64,000 bases of DNA from Cellulomonas fulva (GTDB taxonomy: Bacteria; Actinomycetota; Actinomycetes; Actinomycetales; Cellulomonadaceae): the NCBI RefSeq assembly GCF_018531375.1, contig NZ_JAHBOH010000001.1, positions 1,798,001-1,862,000 of the forward strand, in the 5' to 3' direction. This document shows, piece by piece, positions 39,376-63,599 of the stretch. Numbering within the stretch: the first letter of the stretch is position 1; each line of letters begins with the position of its first letter. The position numbers and the translations under genes were made by a program. Below the pieces are notes generated by a model that saw only the letters and a list, made by a program, of their open reading frames with translations, was not told the DNA's origin and made no database searches.

Positions 39376-42300
39376 TCAGACGGTCGGCGGCGTCCAGGCG
39401 ACCTGCACGACCTGACGCCCGCCCTCGCGCGTGACGAGCTGCGCCCGTCCGGGCACGGCCTGCACGGGGCGCGCGCCGCCGATGAGCGGACCCTCGTCGG
39501 GGCTGCCGGACAGGAGCAGGCCGGGTGCGGCGAGGTCCCGCACGGCCTGGATCACCGGGTCGTAGAGCGCGCGCGACGCACCGCCGGAGCGGCGGGTGAG
39601 CACCAGGTGCAGACCGACGTCGCCGGCCTGGGCGAGCAGCGGGACCAGCGCGCCGACGGGGTTGCCGGTGGACGTGGCGACCAGGTCGTAGTCGTCGACG
39701 AGCACGTAGACCTCGGCGCCGGTCCACCAGGAGCGGGCGCGCAGCTGGTCGGGCGTGACGTCGGGCCCCGGCAGCCGGCCGCGCAGGTAGGAGGCGAGGT
39801 CGGACAGCTCGGTGGTCGCCTGCTCCTGGGTCGTCAGGTAGCTGGTGAGGTAGGGCTCCGGGATCTCGCCGAGCAGGGCACGGCGGAAGTCCACCGCGAT
39901 GATCTGGGCCTGCGCGGGCGTATGCCGGCGCTGGACCTCCTGCGCGACCAGCCGGAGCAGGCCGGACTTGCCTGAGCCGGCGTCGCCGAAGGCGTAGAGG
40001 TGGTTCTCCTCGGCCAGGTCGACCTGCACGGGTGCGAGGGCGGCCTCGTCGATGCCGAGCAGGAAGCCGGGCGCGTCCGGCACGCGCTCGCGCAGCTGGG
40101 CGAGCGTGACCTGCTCGGGGAGCAGCCGGAGCTTGGGGGGAGGCGCGCCCTGCCACGAGCGGGCGACGGTCTCCACCAGGTGCTCCACGCCGGCGCCGAG
40201 CGTGCCCGCCGACCCGTCGCCGTCGATCCGCGGCAGCGCGGTGAGCACGTGGTGCTTGGACGCGACCAGGCCGCGGCCCGGACGCTCGCGCGGCACGGCG
40301 GCGGCGACCTTGCGGTCGATCTCGGAGTCCGTCGGGTCGCCGAGCCGCAGCTCGAGGCGGGTCCCGAACAGGTCCTTGATCTGGGTGCGGAAGTCCATCC
40401 ACCGGCTGGCGGCCGCGAGCAGGTGGATGCCGAAGGTCAGCCCGCGCCCGGCGAGCGCCTGCAGCCGCTGCTCGAGCTCGTCGAACTCGGCCCGGATCGT
40501 CGACCAGCCGTCCACGACCAGGAAGACGTCGCCGTACCCGTCGTCGGCCCGGCCCTGCGCACGGCGGGTGCGGTAGGTCTCGACGGAGTCGATGCCCTGG
40601 GCCCGGAAGTACCGCTCGCGCGCGTCGACGATGCCCTCGACCTCGGCGACGACTCGGCGCACCACGTCGGGCTCCGAACGCGTCGCCACGCCCGCGACGT
40701 GCGGCAGCCCGACGAGCGGCGTGAACGTGCCGCCACCGAAGTCGAGCACGTAGAACTGCGTCTCGAGCGGCGTCCGGGTCAGGGCCAGGCCGGTGACCAC
40801 CGACCGCAGGACGGTGCTCTTGCCCGAGCGCGGCCCGCCGACGACGGCCATGTGCCCGCCGGCGCCCGCGAGCGAGATCGCGAGGTTCTCGCGGCGCTGC
40901 TCGAGCGGGCGGTCGACGATGCCCAGGGGGAACGTGAGGGTCCCGGCGTCGCGCCAGCCGCGCGAGACGAGCCCGAGCTCGGGGTCGGCGGCGAGGTCCG
41001 GCATCAGGCGGTCGTACGTCTCGGGGACGACGAGCGGCGGCAGCCACACCTGGTGCGCCGCGGGACCCTGCCCGCGCATCAGCGAGACCGCGATGTCGAA
41101 CGTCGCGCGCCGCTCCTCCTCGTCGAGCAGGTCCGGCTCGTCGGGCTCGTCGCGGCCGCCCGTGGCGGACAGGACCGGGGCAGCGGTGAACGACTCGAGG
41201 CGGGTCTGCCGCGTCGCGGTCGCCGGTCCACCCGTGAGGCGGCGACGGCGCGCCTTGGGCGGGCCGGAGACGTAGGACGCGCGGAACTGGACCATGGTCG
41301 TCGGGTCCGGCTTGAGGTAGCCCATGCCGGGGACGGGCGGGAGCTCGTACGCGTCGGGGACGCCCAGCACGGTGCGCGACTCCGCCGCGGAGAACGTGCG
41401 CAGGCCGATGCGGTAGGACAGGTGCGACTCGAGACCGCGCAGGCGCCCTTCCTCGAGCCGCTGGCTCGAGAGCAGCAGGTGCATCTGCAGCGACCGGCCC
41501 AGGCGGCCGATCGCGACGAACAGGTCGACGAACTCGGGCTTCGCCGCGAGCAGCTCGGAGAACTCGTCGGCGACGATCAGCAGCGCGGGCAGCGGGGCGA
41601 GGTCGGGCCGGTCCGTGCGCCGCGCCTTCTCGTAGTCGGCGACGTTCGCAAAGTTGCCGGCGGCGCGCAGGAGCTCCTGGCGGCGGACCATCTCGCCCTG
41701 CAGCGCGTCCTGCATGCGGTCGACGAGCGTGAGCTCCTCGCCCAGGTTGGTGATGATCGCCGAGACGTGCGGCATGTCCGCCATGCCCGCGAACGTCGCC
41801 CCGCCCTTGAAGTCGACCAGGACGAAGTTCAGGTCCTCCGAGGAGTGGGTCAGCGCGAGCGCGAGCACGAGCGTGCGCAGCACCTCGGACTTGCCCGAGC
41901 CGGTCGCCCCGATGATCAGGCCGTGCGGCCCCATGCCCTGCTGCGCGGACTCCTTGATGTCGAGCGAGACCGGCTGGCCCTGCGGCGTCAGGCCGATCGG
42001 CACGCGGAGCCGGTCGCGGGGGAGCCGCGGCTTCCACGCCCGCGCGAGGTCCAGGTCGCGGACGTCGCCGAGGCCCAGCAGGTCGACCAGCTCGGAGGAC
42101 ACCTGGCCCTCCTCGCGCTGCGGGCCCGCGTCCACGTACAGCGGCAGGAGCCGGCGCGCGGTGGCCTCGGCCTCGGCGACGGAGAGCTGGTCGCCCCGCA
42201 GCCGCGTCGGCTCCAGGCCCAGGCGCAGCACCTCGACCGGCACGCCGCCGTCGGGCAGCGCCGAGCCCAGCAGGAAGCGCAGCACGTTGGGGTCCTCGAG

Positions 42301-43344
42301 GTCGTCCCAGCGCTCCGGGAGCTCGAGGACGGTGATCCCGAGGACGCCGTCGTTGGTGAGGATGCCGTTGCCGACGGGCACGTGGCCGCCGTCGACGACG
42401 ACGAGGAGGTGGGGCGTGGGCGTCCCCAGACCCTGCCGCCCGTACCGGGGCCGGTCGGCGAGCCCCTCGGGGAGCAGGCTCTCGATCTCGCCGAGCGTGG
42501 TGCCCATCATGCGGGCCGCGCCGACGGCGTCGCGCTCGCGGGTCGAGTGCGCGTGCGGGAGCCACTTGACCCAGTCCCACGCGGGCATCGCCCGGTCGCT
42601 CGCGATGACGGCGACCTGCAGCTGGTCGGGGGAGTGGAACGCCGCGAGCTGCGCGACGACGGCGCGGGCCAGGCCGCGCGCCTCGTGCTCGGTGCCCGCC
42701 ACCTCGATGCGGGCCGCGCTGCGCACGTCGACGGACAGCGGGATGTCCTGCTGCACGCGGTGCGTGACCAGGAAGCGGTGCGCCGCGGAGGCCGCGACGG
42801 GGTCCAGCTGCGCGAGGGGAGGGGTCTGGGGTGCCTCGAGCTGCAGCGAGAGCAGCTGTGGCCCGGTGCCGACGCGGGCCCGGAGGAACTCCGGGTGGTC
42901 GCTCGTACGCTCCCACGCCCGGCTGCGCTCCTCGACGAGCGCGGGCAGCGCCCCGGGGGCCGGCGCGAACCACTGCGCGGCCCGCCGCTGGGCGCGTCCG
43001 GCCTGGCGCACCGTCCGCCGCAGGTCGGCCAGGTACGCGAGGTACTCGCGCCGTGCCCCGATCACCTGCGCCTGGTGCTGCGCGCGCTGGCGCCAGCCGT
43101 TGACGACCACGAAGCCGAGCGACGCCACCAGGAACATGCCGCCGGCGACCATGCCCGTGCCGTTGGGCTGCGCGAGCGCGATGAACAGGATCGAGCCGAC
43201 GCTGCCGAGCATCGGGATGATGCTCGACAGCACGCCGCTCACGCCGTCGGACGGCTGGATCTCCGGCGGAGGCTGCATCACGATCTGCCCGGTCGGGACG
43301 GCCGGCGGGCCCGTCGGCGCGCTGCGGTCGGCGGCGATCGACAT
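39376..43344 (-). CDS. eccC: Type VII secretion ATPase EccC (FtsK/SpoIIIE family)
   Basis: 1322 residues. Two N-terminal membrane helices (about 35-85) are followed by a linker domain and three FtsK/SpoIIIE ATPase domains. Walker A motifs are GATGSGKS (near 478), GGPRSGKS (near 838) and GDAGSGKS (near 1121). The first domain also has a full Walker B (LLIVADEF); the second and third show LVVDGW and VLVDDYD. EccC powers and selects substrates in ESX systems, with WXG100 proteins binding the last ATPase domain. Here all three domains are in one chain, unlike the split EccCa/EccCb of ESX-1. The ATG follows a GGAGG six bases upstream, and the gene is divergent from eccD across 184 bases. Confidence 0.93.
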   Translation of the reverse strand: MSIAADRSAPTGPPAVPTGQIVMQPPPEIQPSDGVSGVLSSIIPMLGSVGSILFIALAQPNGTGMVAGGMFLVASLGFVVVNGWRQRAQHQAQVIGARREYLAYLADLRRTVRQAGRAQRRAAQWFAPAPGALPALVEERSRAWERTSDHPEFLRARVGTGPQLLSLQLEAPQTPPLAQLDPVAASAAHRFLVTHRVQQDIPLSVDVRSAARIEVAGTEHEARGLARAVVAQLAAFHSPDQLQVAVIASDRAMPAWDWVKWLPHAHSTRERDAVGAARMMGTTLGEIESLLPEGLADRPRYGRQGLGTPTPHLLVVVDGGHVPVGNGILTNDGVLGITVLELPERWDDLEDPNVLRFLLGSALPDGGVPVEVLRLGLEPTRLRGDQLSVAEAEATARRLLPLYVDAGPQREEGQVSSELVDLLGLGDVRDLDLARAWKPRLPRDRLRVPIGLTPQGQPVSLDIKESAQQGMGPHGLIIGATGSGKSEVLRTLVLALALTHSSEDLNFVLVDFKGGATFAGMADMPHVSAIITNLGEELTLVDRMQDALQGEMVRRQELLRAAGNFANVADYEKARRTDRPDLAPLPALLIVADEFSELLAAKPEFVDLFVAIGRLGRSLQMHLLLSSQRLEEGRLRGLESHLSYRIGLRTFSAAESRTVLGVPDAYELPPVPGMGYLKPDPTTMVQFRASYVSGPPKARRRRLTGGPATATRQTRLESFTAAPVLSATGGRDEPDEPDLLDEEERRATFDIAVSLMRGQGPAAHQVWLPPLVVPETYDRLMPDLAADPELGLVSRGWRDAGTLTFPLGIVDRPLEQRRENLAISLAGAGGHMAVVGGPRSGKSTVLRSVVTGLALTRTPLETQFYVLDFGGGTFTPLVGLPHVAGVATRSEPDVVRRVVAEVEGIVDARERYFRAQGIDSVETYRTRRAQGRADDGYGDVFLVVDGWSTIRAEFDELEQRLQALAGRGLTFGIHLLAAASRWMDFRTQIKDLFGTRLELRLGDPTDSEIDRKVAAAVPRERPGRGLVASKHHVLTALPRIDGDGSAGTLGAGVEHLVETVARSWQGAPPPKLRLLPEQVTLAQLRERVPDAPGFLLGIDEAALAPVQVDLAEENHLYAFGDAGSGKSGLLRLVAQEVQRRHTPAQAQIIAVDFRRALLGEIPEPYLTSYLTTQEQATTELSDLASYLRGRLPGPDVTPDQLRARSWWTGAEVYVLVDDYDLVATSTGNPVGALVPLLAQAGDVGLHLVLTRRSGGASRALYDPVIQAVRDLAAPGLLLSGSPDEGPLIGGARPVQAVPGRAQLVTREGGRQVVQVAWTPPTV

Positions 43345-43489: not shown

Positions 43490-43528
43490 GTGGGCGATCC
43501 TGGACGCCGCAGATGCAGGGGAGGTCGA

Positions 43529-44917
43529 GTGTCGGCAACCGCCGCTGCGCGTGTGCGCTCCGCGCCGGTGCGGCTCGCCGTCGCGGTGGGCGTCGACCGC
43601 CGGGACGTGGCGCTGCGCGCCGACGTCGTGCTCGCGGACGCGCTCCGGGCCGCGCTCGTACCTGTCGGCGAGCCGGGCACGGTGGTGCTCGACTCGAGCG
43701 GACGCCGCCTCGACCTGGCCGCCGCCGTCGGCGACCAGCTCGTGGACGGGTCCGCGGTGCACGTGCTGCGCCCCGCGCCGGCACCCCGGGGCCGGCACGG
43801 CCGCACCCTCGACCCCTCGACGCTCTCCCGCCGGCCCTACCCGCGCGCCGGCCTGCTGGCGATCGCGGGGGGCGTGGGCCTCGCGCTGCTCGTCGTCGCC
43901 CTGCTGGGGCCGTCGGGGCAGCCGCCCGCCGTGCCGACGGCTCTCGCGACCGCACTCGTCGTGGCCGCGCTCGTCGTCGCCGGGACCGGACGGCTGCGCG
44001 GACGGGCGACCACCCCGTCGGTCGCCGTCGCCGCGACGGTCGCCGCGCCGCTCCTGGCGGCCGCCGCCGGCGCCTGGGCGGTGCTGCCGGCCGACGCCGT
44101 CGAGCGACGCCTCGCCGTCACCGTCGCCCTCGTCGCCGCCGCCACGGCGGCCGGCGTGCGCTCGGTCGTCGCGCTCGCGGCACGGGTGGGGGACGACGAG
44201 GCCGTCGTGGTGCTCGCCGCGCTCGTGGTGGTCGCCGCCACCCAGGTCGCCGGCCTCCTGCTCGGCCTGCCGGGCGGCACCGCTGCCGCCGTCGTCGTCG
44301 GGCTCGGCCCGCTCATGCTGCGCCTCGCGCCGCGGTACGCCCTCGCGGTGCCCGACGAACAGCTCGTCGACCTGTCGCAGGTCTCCCGCACGGCCGACTC
44401 GGTGCGGGCGCCGCGCCCGCGTGCGCTCGGCCGCGTGAGCGAGCGTCTGGTAGCGCGGACCGTCGCCGGGGCCGAGCGTCGGGTCGCGGCCGCGTGCGTC
44501 GCCGCGTGCGTCGCGACCGTCGTCCTGGTCCCCGTCGTCCTGGCGGCCCCCGAGCCGGGGAGCATCGCGCGGCCGGCGTCGTACGCGCTCGTCGTCCTCG
44601 TCGTGCTCGCGCTCGTGCTGGTACCGCGCGTCACCCGCGACCCGTTGATCCGGTGGGCGCCACGGCTCGCGGCCGGAGCGCTCCTGGTCGAGCTCGCGCT
44701 CGGCATGCCGGCGGGCTGGCGGGCGTCCGCCGCGGCCCTCGCGATCCTGCTGCTCCTGGTCGTCGCCGGTGTCGGCGCCGCCCTCGCCCGGGGCTGGCGG
44801 TCGGTGGTCGCGTCGCGCGTCGCCGACGTGGTCGAGAATCTCGCGGTCGTGCTGTCCCTCCCCGTCGCGATCGCCGCCGGCGGGCTCGTCGAGATCCTCC
44901 GAAGGGCCGTGTCGTGA
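43529..44917 (+). CDS. eccD: EccD-like type VII secretion membrane protein (1)
   Basis: 462 residues. The first ~85 residues look like the ubiquitin-like (YukD/EccD N-terminal) domain, with the pattern VRLAVAVGVDRRDVAL ... LDLAAAVGDQLVDGSAVHVL. About eleven membrane helices follow to the C-terminus, with a cytoplasmic loop around residues 275-320. This is the EccD layout. GGGGAGG lies just before the GTG. The stop shares one base with the start of the zinc-ribbon/FHA gene. The second EccD in this locus (51620) is clearly divergent in sequence. Confidence 0.8.
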   Translation: MSATAAARVRSAPVRLAVAVGVDRRDVALRADVVLADALRAALVPVGEPGTVVLDSSGRRLDLAAAVGDQLVDGSAVHVLRPAPAPRGRHGRTLDPSTLSRRPYPRAGLLAIAGGVGLALLVVALLGPSGQPPAVPTALATALVVAALVVAGTGRLRGRATTPSVAVAATVAAPLLAAAAGAWAVLPADAVERRLAVTVALVAAATAAGVRSVVALAARVGDDEAVVVLAALVVVAATQVAGLLLGLPGGTAAAVVVGLGPLMLRLAPRYALAVPDEQLVDLSQVSRTADSVRAPRPRALGRVSERLVARTVAGAERRVAAACVAACVATVVLVPVVLAAPEPGSIARPASYALVVLVVLALVLVPRVTRDPLIRWAPRLAAGALLVELALGMPAGWRASAAALAILLLLVVAGVGAALARGWRSVVASRVADVVENLAVVLSLPVAIAAGGLVEILRRAVS

Positions 44918-46188
44918 TGACCACCCCGACCACGTGCGTGGCCTGCGGCCGACCCCTGCGCGAGGGGGCCCGGTTCTGCACCGGGTGCGGCACGCCTGTG
45001 ACCCCCGTCGTGGTGGTCGAGGCGCAGCCTCCGGTGCGGTCACGCCGCGCCACGCCGCGCCCGGCCACGTCCGGTCAGCGTGCCGGTCAGCGCGCCACCG
45101 GCGCGGCCACCGCCGGAGCGGTGCCGCTCGGGGTGGCGTTCGACGGCGTCCGCACCGTCCCGGTGGGGCTGCGCCTGGCGGCCTACCTGGTCGACGCCCT
45201 CGTCGTGCTGGCCGTGGCCGCCGCGGTCCTGCTGGCGACCGGTCGCCTCGGTTACGCGGTCCTCGCGGCCGCCGAGCTCGTGATCGGCCTCGTCGTCTGG
45301 GAGGCGCGGACGGGCTGCACCTTCGGCAACCTGGCGCTCGGCCTGCGTGCCGCGCGCGCCGAGGCACCGTACGCGCCCGGGCTCGGCCGCGGCGCGCTGC
45401 GCTCGCTGGTGCTCCTGGCCGGCCACGCGGTGGCGGGCGTCGGTCAGCTCGTCGTCCTCGGCTCGGCCGGGTTCGACCGGTCCGGGCTGCGGCAGGGGTG
45501 GCACGACCGCGCGGGCCGCGCGGTCGTCGTCGACGTCCGTGGACCCCGGACGACCGGTGCCGGCCTGCGGGCGCCCGTCGCGGCCGGCGCGGCACCCGGC
45601 GTGACGCCGACGCCGCGACCGGCTGTCGACGGGGCCGCTGCCTACCCCTCCGCCGTCGCCCCGCCAGCCGCCGTCCCGGGTACGGCCGCGGCGGTCGCGC
45701 CGGTGCTGCCGGGCTCAGGTGGGACGGCCCCCGCACCCTGGGCCCCGGCCGTCCCGTCGGGAGCGGGCGGATCTCCGTCCGCGTCCTCCGCGTCCTCAGG
45801 GCCGGCCGCGTCGTCCGGGCCTGGGCCGGGGTCGCGCCCGAGCGCCCCGACGGTCTTCGTGCTGACGCTCGACACCGGCGAGGCGATGACGGTCAGCGGC
45901 CCGGGCGTGATCGGGCGTGCGCCCCGGCCGATCACGGGGGAGCGGTGCGACCACGTCGTCGTCATCGACGACCCCGAGCGCTCCCTGTCCCGTACGCACG
46001 CCCGCTTCGGGATCGACGCCCGCGGGTTCTGGGTGGCCGACGCGGGCTCGGGCAACGGCACGGTCGTCGTGCTGCCGTCGGGGCAGACGGCCGTCGTCGA
46101 GGCGGACCGACCCGTGCCGGTGCCGTCGGGCTCGACCGTCCGGCTCGGCGACCGCGAGGTCGTCGTCGAGGCGCTCCGCGCGGCCTGA
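44917..46188 (+). CDS. Zinc-ribbon / RDD membrane / FHA domain protein (2)
   Basis: 423 residues with the same order as the gene at 37477 but shorter linkers: zinc ribbon (CVAC and CTGC, residues 7-24), RDD-type membrane domain (VGLRLAAYLVDALVV to GWHDRAGRAVV, about 80-205), Pro/Ala/Ser linker, FHA domain (about 310-423) with VIGRAP, SLSRTH and GSGNGTVV. Its start is coupled to eccD, placing it in the secretion machinery. A 16-bp-stem hairpin follows. Confidence 0.82.
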   Translation: MTTPTTCVACGRPLREGARFCTGCGTPVTPVVVVEAQPPVRSRRATPRPATSGQRAGQRATGAATAGAVPLGVAFDGVRTVPVGLRLAAYLVDALVVLAVAAAVLLATGRLGYAVLAAAELVIGLVVWEARTGCTFGNLALGLRAARAEAPYAPGLGRGALRSLVLLAGHAVAGVGQLVVLGSAGFDRSGLRQGWHDRAGRAVVVDVRGPRTTGAGLRAPVAAGAAPGVTPTPRPAVDGAAAYPSAVAPPAAVPGTAAAVAPVLPGSGGTAPAPWAPAVPSGAGGSPSASSASSGPAASSGPGPGSRPSAPTVFVLTLDTGEAMTVSGPGVIGRAPRPITGERCDHVVVIDDPERSLSRTHARFGIDARGFWVADAGSGNGTVVVLPSGQTAVVEADRPVPVPSGSTVRLGDREVVVEALRAA

Positions 46189-46368: not shown

Positions 46369-47853
46369 TCACCAGGTCTCGTCGTCGTCCGACGCCGAGG
46401 ACGCGACGACGTCCGGACGGTCCTCGCGCGAGCCGCTGCGCATGCCCGCGGCCCGCCCGACCGGCGACTCCTCGTCGTCGAGCTCCGGCGCGAGGTACCC
46501 GAGCGAGCCGGCCCGCTTCTTCTTGGACGTCGAACCGGCTCCACCGGCGCCGCCCGCACCGCCACCGACCATGCCGGTGGCTCCGGGCCGGCCGCCTGCT
46601 GCGCCGCCCGCACCACCCGCGCCGCCCGCGCCGACGGGAGAGCCCATCGGGCCGGCCATGACCGCCCCGCCGCCCAGCGCGCCGGCAGGCGTGCCGAGGC
46701 CACCGGCGGTGCCGGAGAGCCGCGAGCCACCGACCGCGCCGAGCGCCGTTCCGCCGACCGCGAGGCCGCCGGCGAGCGCTCCGCCGACGACGCCACCACT
46801 GCCGGGCGCGGTGCCGCCGGGCAGGGTTCCCTGGCCCGGGCCGCCGTTGCCCAGCCCGCCGCCGAGGTTCGGGTTCGGTCCGCCGATCGGTCCGGGGCCG
46901 TAGGGCGTGCCGGCGCCCGGCCCGTCGCTGTGCACGTCGCCGCCGCCGTACTGCCACGGCGGCGTCGTCCCGTCCCCGGGATAGGTCGGGTCCGACCCGC
47001 CCGGACCGTCGCCTGGGTCGGGGTAGCCCGGGTCCGTCGGGTCGGGGTAGCCGGGGTCCGTGGGGTCGGGGTAGCCGGGGTCCGTGGGGTCGGGGTAGCC
47101 GGGGTCCGTGGGGTCGGGGTAGCCGGGGTCCGTGGGGTCGGGGTAGCCGGGATCGGTCGGGTCCGGGTAGCCGGGGTATGGCGGGTCCGTCGGTCCGCCG
47201 ACGTCCGGGGGCTGGTAGTTCCCGGACGGGGGCGGCACCGAGCCGATCGGAGGCACGCCCCCGCCGGGGGGCGGGGTGCTGCCATTCGGTCCGGGAACCG
47301 AGGGGATCGTCGACGGGGTCCTGCCGCCCGGGGTGGCGGGATCGTCCTCCGGGACCCGGTACTCCTCGACTCGCTCGTTGAGGGAGAGCATGCGCGCCTG
47401 CAGGTCGTTGAGGTCGTTCGACATGCTCGTGAGCGCCTTGTCGGCCTCGTTCTCCCGCTGCTGGGCGCGGGCCTGCTCGATGTAGGTGATGCCCGGTCCG
47501 GCGCCGGCCTCCTCGTACTCCCGGCGCTCCCACGAGCTGAGCTGGCCGGACGGGAGCTGCTGGTACTCGGTCTGGGCGCGCGACACGATGCCCGCGGCGC
47601 TCTGCGCGACGCCGGCGGCGTCCACGACGACGTCGGCGTGCGCCTTGAGCTTGCGGACGATCTCGAGGATCTTCTCGTCGGCGGCCTCGGCCACCTTGCC
47701 CGAGACCCCCAGCTCGCCGCTCATCGCCCCGAGCCGCTCGCTGATCTCCTCGAGCGGCGTGGTCAGCTTGCGCAGGTCCATCGCGTCGTCGACGGCGAGG
47801 TCCGGCGCGGCGTCGAGCGTCTTCGCGAGCTCGGCGGCCTTCTCCCTGTCCAT
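46369..47853 (-). CDS. Long helical type VII secretion-associated protein with Pro/Tyr and Gly repeats
   Basis: 494 residues. An all-helical N-terminal region (about 1-185, heptad-like, with Trp near residue 108 in SSWERREYEE) resembles the helical hairpins of ESX substrates, and YRVPE (near residue 165) fits the YxxxD/E export signal. A Pro-rich stretch follows, then seven GYPDPTDP-type octapeptides coded by 24-bp repeats, a Gly/Ala-rich region with hydrophobic character and a charged tail ending DDDETW. I infer a secreted or surface-exposed substrate, loosely comparable to PPE or EspB proteins, but no family is recognised. It starts two bases after the mycosin gene, so it is in the same operon. 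Confidence 0.7.
   Translation of the reverse strand: MDREKAAELAKTLDAAPDLAVDDAMDLRKLTTPLEEISERLGAMSGELGVSGKVAEAADEKILEIVRKLKAHADVVVDAAGVAQSAAGIVSRAQTEYQQLPSGQLSSWERREYEEAGAGPGITYIEQARAQQRENEADKALTSMSNDLNDLQARMLSLNERVEEYRVPEDDPATPGGRTPSTIPSVPGPNGSTPPPGGGVPPIGSVPPPSGNYQPPDVGGPTDPPYPGYPDPTDPGYPDPTDPGYPDPTDPGYPDPTDPGYPDPTDPGYPDPTDPGYPDPGDGPGGSDPTYPGDGTTPPWQYGGGDVHSDGPGAGTPYGPGPIGGPNPNLGGGLGNGGPGQGTLPGGTAPGSGGVVGGALAGGLAVGGTALGAVGGSRLSGTAGGLGTPAGALGGGAVMAGPMGSPVGAGGAGGAGGAAGGRPGATGMVGGGAGGAGGAGSTSKKKRAGSLGYLAPELDDEESPVGRAAGMRSGSREDRPDVVASSASDDDETW
47017..47184 (-). repeat. 24-bp minisatellite in the helical ESX-associated gene
   Basis: Seven tandem 24-bp units. Four (47041-47136) are identical; the flanking units at 47017, 47137 and 47161 carry two to five changes. 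They code for GYPDPTDP-type octapeptides and keep the frame. Confidence 0.92.
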
Positions 47854-47855: not shown

Positions 47856-49232
47856 TCACCCTCCCCCTGTCTCGTGTGGTCGGTGCGGGTCGTCGGTGCC
47901 GCCGTCGGTCACGGCGGCGGTCGGTGCGTCGGCGGCAGCGCCGCGGCGTCGTGCGACGAGGATGAGCGCGGTGGCGACGGCAGCCAGCGCGACGCCGCCC
48001 AGCCCGGCCCAGGCGAGCGGCGCGGCCGATCCGTCGTCGGCGTCCTCGGCGGCGGGGGGTGCGGCGCTCGGCGCGGCGGAGGGCTCCGCGGTCGCCCCCG
48101 CCGTGGCGGCGGGCGTCGCGCTCGGCGTCGGCTCGGCGCTGGGCGTCGTGAGCGCCATGACCTGCTCGTAGGTCGGCACGCTCAGCTCGTCGTGGTCGAG
48201 GAACGGGCTCTCGTCGGGGTACTTCGCGGGGTCCTGCTCGAGCATCTGCCGGACGTTGACGGTGCCGAAGCCGTAGAAGTCGTCCCGGTAGATCTCGTGC
48301 TCCTCGCCGTTGGTGTTGCGCACCAAGGCCTGCAGGAGCTGGTTCGTCGTCGCGTCGGGGTACGCGGACTTGACGAGCGCGAGCGCGCCCGCGGTGTACG
48401 CGGTCGCGTTCGACGACCCGCTGCGCTCGGAGTAGCCCGCCAGGTCGTCGTCGAGCTGGTGGATGTCCTCCCCGGGGGCGACGACGCCCGTGCCGGACGG
48501 CGCGCCGCCCCAGACCTTCCCGTCGGGGCCGATCGAGTCGACCGCGACCACGCCGTTGAACTGGGCGGGGTAGCCGAGCGCCGGGCTCTTCTCGTCGGAC
48601 GTCACCGCGGCGACGATGATCGCCCCGGACGCCAGAGCGGGAGCGATGCCCTCTTCGCCCCAGCCGCCGGTGGAGTTCAGCGAGATCGAGATGATGTCCG
48701 CGCCGTCCTCGACGGCCTGCAGGATCGCGAGGTCGAGCTCGTTGTTGGTGCGGCCCTCGAACGGCTCGCAGACACCCTTCTCGGTGCCCTCGGGGCCGAC
48801 GAGCGCGGAGTAGAAGGTGACGGTCGCGTCGGGGGCGATCCCGAGCGTCCCGGGCTCCCCGTCCAGCCCCTTCCCGGTCCCGACGACGAGCGCGCTCATC
48901 CCGGTGCCGTGCGCGGCGGCGGGCGTGTCCTGCGCAGCGGGCAGGCGGTCGCCGCCCCGCTCCTCGGCGCAGAAGGACGGCTCGTGGACCGTCAGGTCGG
49001 CACCGCGCAGGTCTCCCGAGTCCGGGGCGATCGCGGTGTCGATGATCGCGACGTGCACGCCCTTGCCCGTGGTGCGCTCGTGGATGGCGTCCATGCCGGT
49101 CTTCGTGAAGTACCACATCCCGCCGTCCGAGTCGCCGGCGGCCGTCGCCGGGGCGACGCCGAGGCAGCCCAGCGCCGCCGCACAGGCGAGCGCGGCCACC
49201 GAGCGACGACGGAGGAGCGGGCGTGCGGTCAC
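47856..49232 (-). CDS. mycP: Mycosin-type subtilisin-like protease (1), type VII secretion
   Basis: 458 residues. Signal peptide (about 1-32), subtilisin (S8) domain, Pro/Ala linker and a C-terminal membrane helix (about 405-430), the mycosin layout. Triad: Asp65 (AIIDTAIAP), His108 (AAHGTGMSA) and Ser274 (GSSNATAY). Odd point: where other subtilisins have the oxyanion-hole Asn (AGN), this protein reads AAVTSDE, so that residue seems to be missing and activity may be low. The start overlaps the upstream helical gene (GTGA). Confidence 0.87.
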   Translation of the reverse strand: MTARPLLRRRSVAALACAAALGCLGVAPATAAGDSDGGMWYFTKTGMDAIHERTTGKGVHVAIIDTAIAPDSGDLRGADLTVHEPSFCAEERGGDRLPAAQDTPAAAHGTGMSALVVGTGKGLDGEPGTLGIAPDATVTFYSALVGPEGTEKGVCEPFEGRTNNELDLAILQAVEDGADIISISLNSTGGWGEEGIAPALASGAIIVAAVTSDEKSPALGYPAQFNGVVAVDSIGPDGKVWGGAPSGTGVVAPGEDIHQLDDDLAGYSERSGSSNATAYTAGALALVKSAYPDATTNQLLQALVRNTNGEEHEIYRDDFYGFGTVNVRQMLEQDPAKYPDESPFLDHDELSVPTYEQVMALTTPSAEPTPSATPAATAGATAEPSAAPSAAPPAAEDADDGSAAPLAWAGLGGVALAAVATALILVARRRGAAADAPTAAVTDGGTDDPHRPHETGGG

Positions 49233-49651
49233 GAGTAGTTGTTCTCCGACGGGGGAGAGGCGTACGGCCCGGACGGCGGGTACGGGCCGTAGGGCGGGTA
49301 CGGGCCGTAAGGGGTCGGGGGGTGCAGCCGCTCGTCGAGGTCCGCGAACAGGGCGCGGACGTCCTCGTCGTGCGCCGCCAGGTCGGCCTCGGTGTCCTTG
49401 AGCGCGACGCGGAACGTCTCGATCTGCGACTGGAGCGCGCGCAGGTTGTCGGAGACGTCGCGGAGCAGCAGGCGGTACTGGCGCGAGAAGTCGACCGCGG
49501 AGCCCACGGCGGACCACGTCGGGCTGTACTGCCGGCCCAGGATGTTCGTCGCCTCGGTGCGCACGTCGTCCACCAGGTCGTACAGCTCGATCAGCGTGCC
49601 GAGGCGCTTCTTGAGCACCTCGCTCTGGATCTCGAGGTCGTCGGTCGGCAC
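49229..49651 (-). CDS. Small helical (WXG100-like) type VII secretion-associated protein
   Basis: 140 residues. About 110 residues of amphipathic helix with a Trp at a likely turn (QYSPTWSAVGSA), then a Pro/Tyr-rich tail with repeated YGPYPP units. It is longer than WXG100 proteins and lacks a strict WxG, but length, helix content and position between the WXG100 genes and the mycosin suggest an ESX partner or substrate. The GTG follows a GAGGGGGGAA ribosome site. No named family is recognised. Confidence 0.6.
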   Translation of the reverse strand: MPTDDLEIQSEVLKKRLGTLIELYDLVDDVRTEATNILGRQYSPTWSAVGSAVDFSRQYRLLLRDVSDNLRALQSQIETFRVALKDTEADLAAHDEDVRALFADLDERLHPPTPYGPYPPYGPYPPSGPYASPPSENNYS

Positions 49652-49688
49652 GGTTCCCCCCTCGTGGTCGTCAGTGCGCTGGGCGTGG

Positions 49689-49728
49689 GTCCGGGCCGTG
49701 GCGGGGAGGTCCCTGCCACGGCCCGGAC
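49689..49728 (-). terminator. Hairpin between WXG100 genes and downstream genes (copy 1)
   Basis: Perfect 14-bp arms (49689-49702 and 49715-49728) around a 12-base loop, just after the WXG100 stop. It could cap or stabilise an abundant short WXG100 transcript and let part of it read through to the mycosin operon. Confidence 0.65.
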
Positions 49729-49734
49729 TCGGGG

Positions 49735-50019
49735 TCACCAGCGGGCGGCGTTGGCGCGCTCGGTGGCCTGGTAGTCCTCGTTGGACGTGGAGACCGCGGT
49801 GCCGATCTCGGCGAGCAGCGCCTTCATGTCCGTGATGGCCGAGGTCCACTTGGCGCGGGCCGCCTCGTAGGAGGTCGACGCCTCGCCGGACCAGTTGGCG
49901 CGCAGCGGCTGCAGCGACTGGTCCATGTCGTTGAGCCGGCCCTCGATCTGGGAGGCGCCGGCCTGGATGTCGGCGGCGGCCGTGGACAGGCCGCCGAAGT
50001 TCACCTTGAGGTCGCTCAT
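49735..50019 (-). CDS. WXG100 family protein, 94 residues (copy 1)
   Basis: Helical hairpin protein with the central WSG (ANWSGEAS) and a C-terminal YQATE that fits the YxxxD/E export signal. It probably forms a dimer with the 103-residue WXG100 protein encoded 17 bases upstream and is exported by the EccC-EccB-EccD system. Identical in protein sequence to the copy at 50681. Confidence 0.93.
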   Translation of the reverse strand: MSDLKVNFGGLSTAAADIQAGASQIEGRLNDMDQSLQPLRANWSGEASTSYEAARAKWTSAITDMKALLAEIGTAVSTSNEDYQATERANAARW

Positions 50020-50036
50020 GATGATGCTTCCCTTCG

Positions 50037-50348
50037 TCAGCCGAGGCGCCCGGACAGGCGCGAGAACGTGGACTGCTGCTGGTCGTCGGACGCCGTGTAG
50101 GTCGACTGCGACGTGAGCAGGTTCTGCTCGAACTCGTTGAGCGCCGAGACGATCTTGGTCGCGTCCTCACGCCACCGGACCATCAGCTGGTTGAACGCGA
50201 CCGCGCCCTGGCCCTGCCAGTGCGACCCGATCCCGGCCAGCTTGCCCTCGAGCGAGCCCAGCTCCTTCTGCAGCTCACCACGCGTCCGGGCGACGACGTC
50301 CGCTCCCTGCTTGATCGCACCATCAGCTGCGGAGACCTCTCCTGCCAT
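50037..50348 (-). CDS. WXG100 family protein, 103 residues (copy 1)
   Basis: Helical hairpin protein with WQG at the turn (GSHWQGQGAV) and a C-terminal YTASD that fits the YxxxD/E export signal. It is first in the pair. A GGGGGAGG ribosome site precedes the ATG. Protein identical to the copy at 50983; the only DNA difference is a silent Gln codon. Confidence 0.93.
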   Translation of the reverse strand: MAGEVSAADGAIKQGADVVARTRGELQKELGSLEGKLAGIGSHWQGQGAVAFNQLMVRWREDATKIVSALNEFEQNLLTSQSTYTASDDQQQSTFSRLSGRLG

Positions 50349-50408
50349 GACACCTCCCCCATGCCCGACCCGTCCGGGCCGATGCCGGGCACGACCCCGG
50401 ACAGGGCC

Positions 50409-50634
50409 ACGCCAGTTCCGGCGAATGTTCGCGAAACCGACCGCACCATATCCGACACCCCCCAGGTCCGTCCTGCCGAGCAACCATCCTGTGGACGGCC
50501 CGGACGATCGCGTCGCGGCCTGCGCTCGACGGGGAAATGCCTGGTCGGGAGAGGCGTGGACGCCCCCGAGCCGGACCGTCGGAGCGAGGACGGCCGTTCG
50601 GACAATCACCCGGACGGGCGGGACGCCCGCGTGG
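50409..50634 (-). promoter_or_regulatory. Unique spacer between the duplicated WXG100 pairs, with promoter of copy 1
   Basis: Within the 332-base gap 50349-50680. TATGGT on the minus strand (50450-50445) is a good -10 candidate and predicts a leader of about 90 bases for the copy-1 pair. The palindrome TTCGCGAA (50428-50435) sits just downstream of the predicted start and may be an operator. The rest of the spacer shows no gene. Confidence 0.4.
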
Positions 50635-50674
50635 GTCCGGGCCGTGGCGGGGAGGTCCCTGCCACGGCCCGGAC
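50635..50674 (-). terminator. Hairpin after WXG100 genes (copy 2)
   Basis: Identical to the hairpin at 49689-49728 (14-bp arms 50635-50648 and 50661-50674). Here it separates the second WXG100 pair from the first. Confidence 0.65.
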
Positions 50675-50680
50675 TCGGGG

Positions 50681-50965
50681 TCACCAGCGGGCGGCGTTGG
50701 CGCGCTCGGTGGCCTGGTAGTCCTCGTTGGACGTGGAGACCGCGGTGCCGATCTCGGCGAGCAGCGCCTTCATGTCCGTGATGGCCGAGGTCCACTTGGC
50801 GCGGGCCGCCTCGTAGGAGGTCGACGCCTCGCCGGACCAGTTGGCGCGCAGCGGCTGCAGCGACTGGTCCATGTCGTTGAGCCGGCCCTCGATCTGGGAG
50901 GCGCCGGCCTGGATGTCGGCGGCGGCCGTGGACAGGCCGCCGAAGTTCACCTTGAGGTCGCTCAT
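50681..50965 (-). CDS. WXG100 family protein, 94 residues (copy 2)
   Basis: Identical in DNA and protein to the gene at 49735, with WSG turn and YQATE tail signal. It is second in the duplicated pair. Confidence 0.93.
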   Translation of the reverse strand: MSDLKVNFGGLSTAAADIQAGASQIEGRLNDMDQSLQPLRANWSGEASTSYEAARAKWTSAITDMKALLAEIGTAVSTSNEDYQATERANAARW

Positions 50966-50982
50966 GATGATGCTTCCCTTCG

Positions 50983-51294
50983 TCAGCCGAGGCGCCCGGA
51001 CAGGCGCGAGAACGTGGACTGCTGCTGGTCGTCGGACGCCGTGTAGGTCGACTGCGACGTGAGCAGGTTCTGCTCGAACTCGTTGAGCGCCGAGACGATC
51101 TTGGTCGCGTCCTCACGCCACCGGACCATCAGCTGGTTGAACGCGACCGCGCCCTGGCCCTGCCAGTGCGACCCGATCCCGGCCAGCTTGCCCTCGAGCG
51201 AGCCCAGCTCCTTCTGCAGCTCACCACGCGTCCGGGCGACGACGTCCGCTCCTTGCTTGATCGCACCATCAGCTGCGGAGACCTCTCCTGCCAT
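50983..51294 (-). CDS. WXG100 family protein, 103 residues (copy 2)
   Basis: Protein identical to the gene at 50037, with one silent change (CAG to CAA, Gln). WQG turn and YTASD tail signal are kept. First gene of the second pair, divergent from the eccD-eccB operon. Confidence 0.93.
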   Translation of the reverse strand: MAGEVSAADGAIKQGADVVARTRGELQKELGSLEGKLAGIGSHWQGQGAVAFNQLMVRWREDATKIVSALNEFEQNLLTSQSTYTASDDQQQSTFSRLSGRLG

Positions 51295-51354
51295 GACACC
51301 TCCCCCATGCCCGACCCGTCCGGGCCGATGCCGGGCACGACCCCGGACAGGGCC

Positions 51355-51619
51355 GTGCCGGTGCGGCGACTGCGCGTCGCACCGAGGACCACACAAGCAC
51401 GGCGGCCCGGTCCGCGGCGGGCGGCACCCGCCGGCTGTGGACGGGTGGTCGTCCGCGGGCGCCGACCGCTCTCCTGGTTATGCTGACCGACGCGTGCCGG
51501 ATGCCCCGACCCGCGCCGACCTGCACCGCGGCCGCGCCGCGGACCGCCGGCACGGGGGAGCCCGGGGAGCAGGCACGCCGGAGACCCGAGAGACCCGCCC
51601 GACCGACCCGAGGACGTCG
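51355..51619 (+). promoter_or_regulatory. Divergent region between WXG100 copy 2 and eccD (2)
   Basis: Part of the 325-base gap 51295-51619. TATGCT (51479-51484) is a good plus-strand -10 and predicts a leader of about 130 bases for the eccD operon. No equally good minus-strand -10 was found for WXG100 copy 2. No gene seen. Confidence 0.4.
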
Positions 51620-52966
51620 ATGACCGAGAGCACGCCGACGAGCCCCGTGGGCACGCTGCTGCGGATCTCGGTCACGTGCGGTGACCGGCGCGTCGACCTC
51701 GGCGCCCCCGGCAACGTCGCGGTCGTGGAGATCGTGCCCGGCCTCGCGCGGTCCCTCGGGGTCCTCGACGCGGGCGCCGTGTACGGCGGCTACCGGCTCG
51801 TCACCCCGACGGGCGAGACGCTGGACCCCGCCCGGTCGCTGCTCGCCGCCGGCGTCGAGGACGGCGAGGTGCTCACGCTCGAGTCGGGTGCGGCGCAGCC
51901 CGAGCCCCGCGTGTACGACGACGTCGTCGAGGCCGTCGCGGACGCCGTGGAGGACCGGTTCCGGCCGTGGACGCCGCACGACAGCGCGCTGGGCGCCGCC
52001 TGGGGCGCCGCCGCGCTCGTCGTCGCAACCGGTCTCCTCCTGCTCGGCGCGCCCCTCGCGGAGCCGCTGCCGCCCGTCGCCGCCGCGGTCGGTGCCCTGC
52101 TGGCCGTGGCCGCCGGCGCGGTCGTCGCGCGGGTGGGCCGGGACGCCGTCGCGGGCCGGGTCCTGGTCCTCGCCGGTGGGTTCCTGGGCGCCGTCGCGGG
52201 CCTGACCGTGGGGACCGCAGCGCCGTCGTGGGGCTGGCCCGCCGCCGCGGCCGGGGCGGGCCTCGTCGTCGTGGCGGCGCTCGCGCTGGCGGCGCTGCCG
52301 GAGGGCCGCGAGGTCGCCGTCGGCCCCGCCGCCCTGGGACTGGCCCTCGCGGTGGTGGGGACCACCGTGGAGCTCGGCGGCTCGGCGCCGGCCGACGTGC
52401 TCGCGGTCGTGGTCGCCGTCGTGCTCACCGCGAGCATCGGCGTGCCGTGGCTCGCGCTCGCCACCACCCCGCTGCGCGTGGTGTCGCCGCGCAGCGACGC
52501 GGAGATCCTGCTCGACCCCGTGCCGATCGACCCGGACCGGGTGCGGCGCCAGCTCGACAGCGGCTACCGGGTCCAGCTCGCGCTGCGGGTCGCCGTGGGC
52601 GTCGTGACCCTCGTCGCGACGCCCACGCTCGTCGGCGGCGGGCTCGCGGCGTCGCTGCTCGTCGTGGTCGGCTGGGTCGGGCTGCTGCTGTCGACGCGCC
52701 AGTCGTACACGCGCGCCGACGTGCTCGTCGTCGTCGCGATGGGGATCACCGGGCTCGCCCTGGCGATCCTGAGCGCCGCGCTGCTGCACCCGGGCTGGCG
52801 CACCGCGCTCGTGTGCGCGGCGGGTGCCGCGGTCGTCCTGCTCGTCGGGCTCGGGCTCGTCGCACCGCGGCGCCGCGTCGCGCTGGCGCGCACCGGCGAC
52901 GTGCTCGAGATGCTGTCCCTGGCCGTCCTGCTGCCGCTCGGCGTGGCCGCGGCCGGCCTGGTCTGA
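51620..52966 (+). CDS. eccD: EccD-like type VII secretion membrane protein (2)
   Basis: 448 residues. N-terminal ubiquitin-like domain (about residues 10-95: LLRISVTCGDRRVDL to DGEVLTLESG) followed by about eleven helices from residue 125 to the end. The domain layout matches EccD and the gene at 43529, but the sequences are far apart. It is the first gene of an eccD-eccB-mycosin-PP2C operon. The ATG follows a GAGGAC element. Confidence 0.85.
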   Translation: MTESTPTSPVGTLLRISVTCGDRRVDLGAPGNVAVVEIVPGLARSLGVLDAGAVYGGYRLVTPTGETLDPARSLLAAGVEDGEVLTLESGAAQPEPRVYDDVVEAVADAVEDRFRPWTPHDSALGAAWGAAALVVATGLLLLGAPLAEPLPPVAAAVGALLAVAAGAVVARVGRDAVAGRVLVLAGGFLGAVAGLTVGTAAPSWGWPAAAAGAGLVVVAALALAALPEGREVAVGPAALGLALAVVGTTVELGGSAPADVLAVVVAVVLTASIGVPWLALATTPLRVVSPRSDAEILLDPVPIDPDRVRRQLDSGYRVQLALRVAVGVVTLVATPTLVGGGLAASLLVVVGWVGLLLSTRQSYTRADVLVVVAMGITGLALAILSAALLHPGWRTALVCAAGAAVVLLVGLGLVAPRRRVALARTGDVLEMLSLAVLLPLGVAAAGLV

Positions 52967-52985: not shown

Positions 52986-54296
52986 ATGGCAGCCAAGCGC
53001 GACCTCGTCGAGGCGCAGACCTTCAGCCGTCGTCGCCTGCTCACCGCGTTCCTCAGCGGAGCCCCGGGCGGCCAGGAGCTCGAGCCCACGAAGCCGCTGC
53101 GCGGGGTGGTCGCCGGCATCACGCTGAGCGTGATCGTCGTCCTCGGCTCGCTGGGCTGGGGGATGCTGCAGCGTGACCCGACGGGGTGGGAGAACGAGCG
53201 GCTCGTCGTCGTCGAGGACGTGGGCACGCGCTACGTGTCGAGCGACGGCACGCTCTACCCGGTGCTGAACGCGACCAGCGCGCGCCTGGCGATCCCCGCG
53301 ACGTCGTTCGACGTGGTGCAGCTCGGCGCGGACGTGATCGCGGACGCCCCGCGCGGGCCGACCATCGGCATCCCCGGCGCCCCCGACGCGCCCCCGGCGG
53401 CCGCGTCGCTCGTCGGCACGGGCTGGTCGTCGTGCGTCGCGGGCGACGGGGTGGCGACGAGCGTGGGCGTCGACGTCGCGACCGAGCCGGAGGACGCCGT
53501 CGCGGTCGTCGTCCAGGACCGCACGTTCGTGGTCGCCGACGGCGTGCGGCACCTGGTGCCGGCCGACCAGGTCGCGGCCGTGCTGCGCGCCACCGGGCTC
53601 GACGCGCAGGCGCCGGTCGAGGTCCCCGCCCGGTGGCTCAACCTGTTCCCCGAGGGGACCGACCTGGTCCCGCTGACCGTGGCGGGTGCCGGTGAGCCGG
53701 CACCGTCCGGGACCGGGCTGCGCGCGCTCGACGTGGGCACGGTCGTCAGCGTGACGACCGTGGGACAGGAGGACCGCTCGTACGTCGTGCTGGAGGACGG
53801 CACGCTCGCCGAGCTGAGCCCGTTCGCGACCGGCCTGTACGCGCTCGGGTCCGGTGCGGGCGCGCAGGAGGTCGAGATGAGCGCGGCGCAGGTCGCGCGG
53901 GCGGGCATCGGCGAGCCGGTCGCCCCCGCGGACTGGCCGGTGGACAGCGTCACCGCGCTGCCGGGCGACCGGGCGGCGTGCGCCGTGCTCACGACGGGGG
54001 CCCGAGCGGGTGTCGCCCTGGTCTCGGCCGAGCCGCCCGCCGCGGCGGGCGTCGCGATCGTCCCGGGCGGCGGCGCGCTGTTCCTCGCGCAGTCCGCTCC
54101 CGACGCCGCGGGCGCGTACGGACTCGTCGACGAGACCGGGCTCCGGTACGGGCTGCCCGGCGCCGACGAGGAGACGCTCGCCCGTCTGGGGTACGCGCCC
54201 GACGACGTCGTCGTCGTGCCCCCGGCGTGGGCGGAGCTCTTCGGGACGGGACCGGACCTCACGACGACGGCCGCGACGATCCCGAGCGTGCCGTGA
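52986..54296 (+). CDS. eccB: Type VII secretion protein EccB
   Basis: 436 residues. A short cytoplasmic N-terminus with the EccB-type start (KRDLVEAQTFSRRRLLTAFLSG), one membrane helix (about 42-62), then a large extracytoplasmic repeat domain (GWENERLVVVEDVGTRYV ... LYPVLNATSARL). EccB forms the outer face of the ESX membrane complex. Start 19 bases after eccD; the stop overlaps the mycosin gene (GTGA). Confidence 0.93.
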   Translation: MAAKRDLVEAQTFSRRRLLTAFLSGAPGGQELEPTKPLRGVVAGITLSVIVVLGSLGWGMLQRDPTGWENERLVVVEDVGTRYVSSDGTLYPVLNATSARLAIPATSFDVVQLGADVIADAPRGPTIGIPGAPDAPPAAASLVGTGWSSCVAGDGVATSVGVDVATEPEDAVAVVVQDRTFVVADGVRHLVPADQVAAVLRATGLDAQAPVEVPARWLNLFPEGTDLVPLTVAGAGEPAPSGTGLRALDVGTVVSVTTVGQEDRSYVVLEDGTLAELSPFATGLYALGSGAGAQEVEMSAAQVARAGIGEPVAPADWPVDSVTALPGDRAACAVLTTGARAGVALVSAEPPAAAGVAIVPGGGALFLAQSAPDAAGAYGLVDETGLRYGLPGADEETLARLGYAPDDVVVVPPAWAELFGTGPDLTTTAATIPSVP

Positions 54297-55567
54297 CCAC
54301 CGCGTCGGTCCCGCCGGCGCGCCGGGTGACGGGCACGGCCCTCCTGGTGCTCGCGGTGGGCGTGCTGACGGGTGCCGGCGTCGCGGCGGGCCCGGCTGCG
54401 GACGCCGCGGAGCGGACCGCCGCGACCGAGCAGACGTGCGGCGACCAGCCGGAGCGGCTCGAGACCGCGGCACCGCCCGCGCTGACCTGGCTGGCGGCGG
54501 ACCAGGCATGGGCGACCGCCACGGGCGCCGGCGTCGTCGTGGCCGTCGTCGACTCCGGCGTGGACGTCCGCAACCCGCACCTCGCGGACGCCGTCGAGAA
54601 GGGCACGGACGTCGTCGGGAAGTCGAAGGACGCGACCGGCCGCACGGACACGTGGTCGCACGGCACCGCGGTCGCCGGGATCATCGCCGCGCGCGAGGTC
54701 CAGGGCTCGGGCGTGGTGGGCCTCGCCCCGGACTCGACCATCCTGCCGGTGCGCGTCTACTACGGCGACGACGAGCAGTGGAACGACGCAGGGCTCGGGC
54801 CGACCGCCGCACGCATGGCCGACGGCATCCGGTGGGCGGCCGAGCACGGCGCGGACGTCATCAACGTCTCGATGTCGGCCAGCACCGACGACCCGGACCT
54901 GCACGCGGCGGTGCGCGAGGCGACCGCGGCGGGTGCGCTCGTGGTCGCGAGCGCGGGCAACCGGCAGACGGCGGACGACACGAGCGACCGCCCGCGCTAC
55001 CCGGCGGCGTACCCGGAGGTTCTCGGCGTGGCCGCGGTCGGCTCCGACCTGCAGCCGTCGGGGGAGTCGATCCACGGCGAGCAGGTCGGCGTCGCCGCAC
55101 CCGGCCAGCAGGTGCTGTCCGTCTTCCCCGGCGAGGGCGACTGCTGGTACGCCGCCGACGCGGCCTCGTCGAGCTGGTCGACGGCGTACGTGAGCGCGGC
55201 GGCGGCGCTGGTCGCGGAGCGGTTCCCGGACGAGTCCCCCGCGCAGTGGGCCTACCGCCTGCAGGTGACGGCTGCGCGCGCGTCGGCCGGGGAGCGCACG
55301 GACGAGGTGGGCTGGGGCGTGGTCCGGCCGGACCAGGCGCTCGTGTTCGTCGACGACGGCACGGCGGTGGGCCCGCCGAACCCGGCCGCCACCCCGACGC
55401 CGGCAGCGGCGGCGCCCACGCCCGTGCAGGTGGCGCCCGCGGTCGACCCGCTCGCGCCCGTCCGGGACGCGGCGGTCTGGTGGGCGCTCGCAGGCGCCGC
55501 GGTGGTCACGCTCACCGCGCTGGCGTGGCGCCTGGTGCCCCGCGGCCCGTCCCGGCGGGTGCCGTGA
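54293..55567 (+). CDS. mycP: Mycosin-type subtilisin-like protease (2), type VII secretion
   Basis: 424 residues. Signal peptide (about 1-38), S8 domain and a C-terminal membrane helix (about 393-412). All catalytic parts are present: Asp87 (AVVDSGVD), His123 (SHGTAVAG), the oxyanion Asn223 (ASAGN) and Ser294, followed by STAYVSAAAALV. Ser294 sits in SSS rather than the usual GTS. This is the better candidate for the active mycosin of the system. Overlaps eccB and the PP2C gene. Confidence 0.92.
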   Translation: MTTASVPPARRVTGTALLVLAVGVLTGAGVAAGPAADAAERTAATEQTCGDQPERLETAAPPALTWLAADQAWATATGAGVVVAVVDSGVDVRNPHLADAVEKGTDVVGKSKDATGRTDTWSHGTAVAGIIAAREVQGSGVVGLAPDSTILPVRVYYGDDEQWNDAGLGPTAARMADGIRWAAEHGADVINVSMSASTDDPDLHAAVREATAAGALVVASAGNRQTADDTSDRPRYPAAYPEVLGVAAVGSDLQPSGESIHGEQVGVAAPGQQVLSVFPGEGDCWYAADAASSSWSTAYVSAAAALVAERFPDESPAQWAYRLQVTAARASAGERTDEVGWGVVRPDQALVFVDDGTAVGPPNPAATPTPAAAAPTPVQVAPAVDPLAPVRDAAVWWALAGAAVVTLTALAWRLVPRGPSRRVP

Positions 55568-63479: not shown

Positions 63480-63522
63480 CACCCCCCCCACCCCGCACCC
63501 CCCACCCCCACGCCCCCCACCT
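63480..63522 (-). other. G-rich tract with quadruplex potential (minus strand)
   Basis: The plus strand has at least five runs of four to eight C separated by one to three bases, so the minus strand has matching G-runs with very short loops, the classic G-quadruplex pattern. Confidence 0.55.
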
Positions 63523-63599
63523 CCCGCGAGCGCGGACGGTGCGTGCCGAGCGCGCCCGTTGACCGTCCGCGCTCACCCGGCACCGTCCGCGCTCGCGGG
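63523..63599. repeat. Structured intergenic element, copy 1
   Basis: Perfect 20-bp outer arms (63523-63542 and 63580-63599). A second, internal match to the left arm, CCGTCCGCGCTC (63563-63574), allows an alternative hairpin, so the left arm can pair with either of two right arms. Confidence 0.8.

Follow-up and report, generated by a model that had tools for sequence, protein, structure and literature searches.

Recurrent gene conversion probably keeps two WXG100 gene pairs identical in an ESX locus of Cellulomonas fulva

The ESX locus of Cellulomonas fulva harbours two nearly identical copies of a WXG100 gene pair. Comparison with related genomes leads us to the view, held with good confidence, that the two pairs are old paralogous loci which recurrent gene conversion keeps identical, a case of concerted evolution. 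The window, i.e. the whole stretch of DNA analysed, comprises 64,000 nt of this genome (G000; 3.74 Mb in three contigs). It contains a 726-bp repeat in two copies, U and D, each with the WXG100 genes A and B (together AB). The repeat region is composed as follows:

51355..51619, no strand assigned: region between copy U and eccD, without TANNNT at the aligned place
50629..51354, minus strand: repeat copy U, 726 bp, adjoining eccD
50983..51294, minus strand: gene A of copy U, EsxB-like WXG100 protein of 103 aa (translation; Pfam and NCBIfam on the identical copy)
50681..50965, minus strand: gene B of copy U, WXG100 protein of 94 aa (translation; Pfam and NCBIfam on the identical copy)
50635..50674, minus strand: hairpin 3' of gene B in copy U (inverted repeat I4)
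50409..50628, minus strand: spacer of 220 bp between U and D, containing the upstream region of copy D
50445..50450, minus strand: TATGGT, putative -10 box for copy D (from the alignment)
49683..50408, minus strand: repeat copy D, 726 bp, adjoining the cargo genes
50037..50348, minus strand: gene A of copy D, 103 aa (Pfam and NCBIfam)
49735..50019, minus strand: gene B of copy D, 94 aa (Pfam and NCBIfam)
49689..49728, minus strand: hairpin 3' of gene B in copy D (folding)

The initial annotation had described a 726-bp duplication with one silent C/T change, in which each copy holds both WXG100 genes and a hairpin while the upstream regions differ. Direct comparison of 49683-50408 with its counterpart at an offset of 946 confirmed this description. 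The only mismatch is 50307 (C) versus 51253 (T), which corresponds to CAG and CAA in the codon for Gln14 of gene A and is thus silent, so that U and D encode identical protein pairs. A match of 726 bp far exceeds chance. A search of the own genome revealed no third copy and otherwise returned short hairpin self-matches alone. The identity of U and D begins 60 bp upstream of the start codon of A and the sequence beyond differs; thus, the ribosome-binding region is common to both copies, and the upstream regions are indeed different as sequence. Both proteins exceed the cut-offs of Pfam PF06013 (A 57.3 bits, B 72.0 bits; cut-off 27.3) and NCBIfam TIGR03930 (A 55.4, B 76.2; cut-off 44.85), and a hairpin of 40 nt follows gene B. 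The translations show the W-x-G motif (HWQGQ and NWSGE) and, at the C-terminus, YTASD in A and YQATE in B, which match YxxxD/E, the secretion motif of WXG100 or Esx proteins. In a sequence-based match, the profile of A finds EsxB structures. A and B may form a secreted Esx heterodimer.

The surrounding genes are:

54305..55567, plus strand: second, more typical mycosin; start approximate (TIGR03921, 272.5 bits)
52986..54296, plus strand: EccB (NCBIfam 184.6, above cut-off)
51620..52966, plus strand: EccD (Pfam 97.9; cut-off 30)
49229..49651, minus strand: cargo gene C, 140 aa, without Pfam or NCBIfam match
47886..49238, minus strand: cargo mycosin-like subtilase; start codon approximate (TIGR03921, 133.1 bits)
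46369..47853, minus strand: cargo proline-rich protein PP, without family match; start approximate
44950..46188, plus strand: RDD and FHA domain protein; start approximate
43490..44917, plus strand: second EccD-like membrane protein
39376..43344, minus strand: EccC ATPase (NCBIfam 921 and 840 bits, above cut-offs)

With EccC, EccB, EccD, mycosin-like proteins and an Esx pair present, this is an ESX type VII secretion locus. EccD reaches 94.6 in NCBIfam, where the cut-off is 94.95, and both mycosin-like proteins stay under the TIGR03921 cut-off of 278.75. A PP2C protein is also found among the locus proteins, beside the FHA protein. In having EccB, EccC, EccD, an Esx pair and mycosin-like proteases, it agrees with other actinobacterial ESX loci; it differs from these in a second AB and in an extra set of genes behind AB, in the order gene C, divergent mycosin and PP downstream of copy D. 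Several further repeats exist in the window: 24-bp tandem repeats within the PP gene (46991-47206), which encode the repeat GYPDPTDP; 18-bp tandem repeats at 6954-7140; and, at 63491-63949 near the window end, three direct copies of about 101 nt (69-100% alike) together with two inverted 109-nt segments (72% complementary).

Among relatives, 58 genomes were screened for gene A, and 221 of the family for the repeat DNA. The repeat search scored two candidates per genome, so a third copy could escape, and AB was counted when a match was long, with at least 70% identity over most of the pair, or was cut by a contig end. In the genus, AB was found in 19 genomes. Six of them carry two copies (G000, G021, G032, G014, G094 and G034), which is a lower bound, since drafts with one copy may have had the repeat collapsed in assembly. 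G021, G032 and G014 are single-contig genomes; four other one-contig genomes of the genus (G008, G027, G090 and G107) have a single pair. AB was also present in 14 genomes of other genera of the family, in one copy each. Two long-diverged pairs, the refuting result named in the initial annotation, were seen in none of the six two-copy genomes of the genus, of which two (G094 and G034) have copies cut by contig ends.

In a wider search with the profile of A (E-value of 1e-15 or better), 43 of 396 genomes from the order were matched, five of them twice, and both scores were equal in all five. Among 394 genomes of the class, a draw which overlaps that from the order, there were 20 matched genomes and three with two matches: G000 and G606 with equal scores, and G592 with unequal ones (128.4 and 69.9 bits). 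Over both draws, scores were equal in six of the seven distinct two-match genomes. The exception, the distant G592, carries two unequal A-type genes in adjacent positions (L132:6982-7790).

For alignment, we took eight two-copy genomes in which neither copy is truncated, four of this genus and four of other families; this count leaves out G094 and G034, whose copies are cut by contig ends. The two AB copies of a genome differ by 0-2 substitutions over 610-649 bp in all eight: 1/614 in G000, 0/611 in G032, 2/610 in G021, 1/614 in G014, 0/625 in G427, 1/619 in G457, 1/625 in G468 and 0/649 in G606. Besides, G606 has one single-base indel between A and B, and G468 and G457 have one extra substitution each in the tract outside AB. 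The flanks diverge with a sharp edge. Over up to 150 columns per side (20 columns only for the downstream flank of G032), their identity is 40-65% in 8/8 genomes, close to the background level of GC-rich sequences once aligned; the maximum, 65% in G468, belongs to a flank that runs into related cargo genes. The ends of the identical tract differ from species to species, with the reservation that the alignment script trims them by up to about 15 bp (in the window, 712 bp versus 726 bp by direct comparison). In the cut genomes, the second copy of G094 shows no difference at its visible 5' end and, judged by eye, likewise none at its 3' end, while the copies of G034 differ by two bases in the 5' part and one base past the stop codon of B.

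These pairs are far less alike between species. In 11 of 14 alignment rows (G027, G090 and G107 being left out), AB copies are 10-27% apart between genomes, and the difference at fourfold sites is 21-58%; G107 is likewise absent from a separate set of pairwise distances. Within a genome, the fourfold differences amount to 0/117 in G000, 1/116 in G021, 0/118 in G032 and 1/123 in G014. Thus, AB copies of the same genome are more alike than orthologues, silent sites included. It could be argued that purifying selection alone holds two old copies the same, and protein A is indeed well conserved across species. However, selection on the protein does not fit with silent sites which are identical within the genome of the window and strongly different between genomes, and we consider this explanation highly improbable.

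A technical origin would be conceivable as well, since a near-identical direct repeat of 726 bp exceeds the short-read length, and an assembler could have duplicated a single pair or misjoined the flanks. Against this, the same state is seen in G021, G032 and G014, each on one contig, and the flanks of U and D, which both lie on contig C1 of G000, are different. Moreover, the drafts of C. persica (G094) and C. triticagri (G034) have contigs ending inside the AB repeat, as is the case with true repeats. An assembly artefact is therefore very unlikely.

The distance between the copies varies greatly, from 0.9 kb (G000 and G032) and about 4 kb (G021, G427 and G606) to 73.5 kb (G468), 130 kb (G457) and 851 kb (G014). 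Copies as far as 73-851 kb apart could point to a mobile element that carried the pair. However, no transposase was detected with Pfam and NCBIfam among the neighbouring window proteins scanned, and flanking repeats of at least 16 bp are absent from the window besides the two copies and their hairpins. Further, the identical unit follows the gene pair and has different ends in each species. On the proteins and repeat lengths covered, transfer by a mobile element seems very improbable.

The genes linked to AB bear on the question whether the copies are young. In G000 and G032 the second AB adjoins the first, whereas in G021, G427 and G606 it lies past the cargo, which is thus flanked by direct AB repeats. 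In C. persica, a fragment at L078:10050-10394 separates the two copies; it agrees with the C-terminal region of that genome's own mycosin at 18/27 residues (12/25 for the window mycosin), and we read it as a mycosin remnant. At the remote sites, AB is accompanied in G014 by its own C, two mycosins and PP, in G468 by a glycine-rich cargo protein which PP does not match, and in G457 by no recognised cargo. In G014 and C. triticagri, each AB heads its own cargo. The two pairs of G014, 851 kb apart, are each followed by C and mycosin genes, and between the loci the C proteins are 41% identical and the first mycosins of each array 46%. In C. triticagri, the last part of B and the DNA that follows, as far as the C start codon, are identical except at one base; C diverges right from its start, and the mycosins are 59% identical. 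Conversion predicts this, identical AB beside strongly diverged partners, whereas recent copying of AB and cargo together would not produce it. G468 is mixed, since its cargo proteins differ N-terminally and have the same C-terminal tail at both loci; parts other than AB can thus be held alike too.

Two observations on the cargo are added here. The tail of the G468 cargo proteins (L129:8799-10772 and L130:8824-10704) ends in GEDW, and the PP proteins of the window and of G021 end in DDETW. The mycosin-like genes of G014 form tandem arrays of three and two genes (L036:10532-14166 and L037:10807-13426); these arrays are mosaic repeats in which some stretches are far more alike, mostly toward the C-terminal part.

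The remaining alternative is recent, perhaps repeated duplication, in which AB is copied anew in each lineage and soon lost, so that only young copies are seen. It would account for the near-total identity of the copies, for their different places in different genomes and for the scattered occurrence of duplicates on the tree. The diverged C and mycosin genes behind each AB in G014 and G034 argue against it. In addition, the spacer of a recent tandem copy should match one of the flanks. As a copy of the downstream flank the spacer was rejected (score equalled in 110/500 and 271/500 shuffles); a match to the upstream flank appeared under soft scoring only (1/500), was lost under strict scoring (376/500 shuffles), and with dinucleotide shuffles 36/500 reached the score.

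The history of the locus also bears on this question. A tree of EccD and EccB groups the genomes as ((G000,G021),(G032,G094)) with G010 outside, and these forks are well supported; G027 is left out of the trees, as its eccD match is in two pieces. In the AB tree, the sequences cluster by genome in all five two-copy genomes placed (G000, G021, G032, G014 and G427). The order eccD-U-D-C is found in G000 and G032 and, with the mycosin remnant separating U from D, also in G094, where a contig break interrupts the D pair and the link between the two contigs is inferred. This layout is thus present on both sides of the species split, against what is expected if duplication was recent.

Upstream regions outside the identical tracts (named by genome and copy) were compared using 500 dinucleotide-preserving shuffles. 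G000_D resembles G032_D (z 9.5), G032_U (5.9), G094_D (5.2) and G094_U (3.9), all with 0/500 shuffles, and G021_U (z 5.0, 1/500). G032_U resembles the upstream region of the single pair of C. composti (G010; z 13.1, 0/500), which resembles neither G000_D (107/500) nor G032_D (70/500). Since G032_U but not G032_D is similar to G010, the nearest relatives of the two G032 upstream regions differ. Even so, the U and D types overlap to some extent, as G000_D also resembles G032_U and G094_U, less strongly than the D regions. Between U and D of the same genome there is no resemblance in G021 (321/500) and G094 (448/500), and a weak one in G032 (45/500) and G000 (36/500). Under softer scoring and with simple shuffles, U and D of G000 came out more alike (1/500), which would fit an old duplication including the upstream region; the stricter test did not uphold it. 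G000_U resembles G032_U weakly (28/500), and part of this similarity comes from the eccD upstream region common to both. Locus layout and, less clearly, upstream regions suggest that the duplication is older than the species split; for copy U of G000, whose age is indicated by the layout and by the similarity between G032_U and G010, the case is weaker. G034 sits among single-copy relatives in the tree, and since duplicates are scattered, some duplications must be younger.

Taken together, recent duplication appears unlikely, and the repeat in the window is probably not a very recent duplication. The initial annotation had left the choice between very recent duplication and gene conversion; related genomes favour the second, with copies that are near-identical within a genome and have diverged flanks. 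Counted against conversion are the scattered duplicates, the overlap of the upstream types, the weaker case for the age of copy U in G000, the unequal A genes of G592 and the cargo tail of G468, which is alike too. It should be noted that the genome collections contain one genome per species and conversion is read from comparison between species.

The 40-nt hairpin after gene B has a predicted energy of -40.2 kcal/mol, and none of 200 shuffles was equally stable. Long, near-perfect hairpins were found 3' of B also in L034, L078, L040, L035, L038, L124, L036, L037 and L129. In 10 of 11 folded stretches 0/200 shuffles fold as well; the one of G427 is weaker (2/200). Since the stem sequences are very different between species, and even between the two G014 loci, structure rather than sequence seems to be kept. 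A scan revealed no terminator-like U-tract at the hairpin. As a guess, it may cause partial termination or protect the mRNA, favouring AB over the cargo. Known RNA families at the hairpin or leader gave two matches far under the gathering scores, and the 5' leader was rejected as a stable structure (z -0.90; 35/200 shuffles equally stable).

Since a scan for consensus promoters and terminators was empty, our statements on promoters are drawn from the alignment. The spacer region upstream of copy D resembles the AB upstream regions of G032, G094 and G021. A TANNNT-like element, which in the window reads TATGGT and which may be a -10 element, is located about 100 bp upstream in eight of nine aligned upstream regions, counting both G021 regions, which fall inside the identical tract of that genome and are not independent. 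The sole region without it belongs to copy U of the window, on the eccD side. Copy U may therefore be weakly expressed, rather than the two copies following two expression programmes, and copy D, adjacent to C, is probably the main copy.

Based on these observations, we propose the following course of events. The ESX locus of an ancestor would have gained a second AB, either alone or together with cargo (C, mycosin and proline-rich protein). The cargo would later have been lost or moved: deleted in G000, reduced to a mycosin remnant in C. persica, and retained in G021, G427 and G606, where the AB pairs enclose it. Meanwhile sequence exchange among the AB blocks would have continued, with ends varying by species; RecA-dependent recombination is the probable route. 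In G000, the outcome would be one identical Esx heterodimer behind two upstream regions, which could provide extra dosage and a back-up copy. The RecA-dependent mechanism is inferred, and so is the benefit, be it dosage or an unchanging partner for diverse cargo. If directly repeated AB copies recombined, either the cargo or one of the pairs would be removed; the loss of one pair, already considered in the initial annotation, is plausible, as single-pair relatives exist, and genomes such as C. composti could be products of such a deletion. It is tempting to speculate further, although we regard this as a rather doubtful extension, that in this part of the Actinomycetes the Esx pair is a shared, actively homogenised module heading exchangeable cargo cassettes, and that its copies serve both as the constant partner of every cargo and as recombination sites for duplication, swap and deletion of cassettes.

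Concerted evolution of repeated bacterial genes is well known from rRNA operons and tuf genes. As in these, copies of the same genome are closer than orthologues and flanks diverge; unlike these housekeeping translation genes, AB encodes a pair of secretion substrates, and the genes linked to it vary. A closer parallel is M. tuberculosis, for whose esx genes gene conversion was reportedly described by Uplekar et al. in 2011. The esx paralogue pairs of M. tuberculosis (esxK-L, esxM-N, esxO-P and others) exchange sequence by gene conversion (PMC13061034; PMC12046097). Within-species events among several esx members are on record there and have been taken to generate diversity. Both systems have adjacent, ESX-attached WXG100 pairs in several copies with transfer between copies. 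Unlike in M. tuberculosis, there are here two copies, near identical over the whole pair and with diverged linked genes, and they occur in Cellulomonas and other families, compared by one genome per species. A limited literature search found no report of the present case; what looks new is the regularity in other actinomycetes, with AB constant beside diverging linked genes.

In practical terms, the repeat is a warning that one AB copy can be missing or broken in draft assemblies. In M. tuberculosis, conversion of esx genes is interpreted as a source of antigen diversity. Near-perfect homogenisation in Cellulomonas and three other families, over distances of up to 851 kb and beside diverged linked genes, suggests that conversion may be a feature of the secretion system rather than of a pathogen adapted to its host. 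Thus, Cellulomonas offers an environmental genus in which to ask why the Esx partner stays constant.
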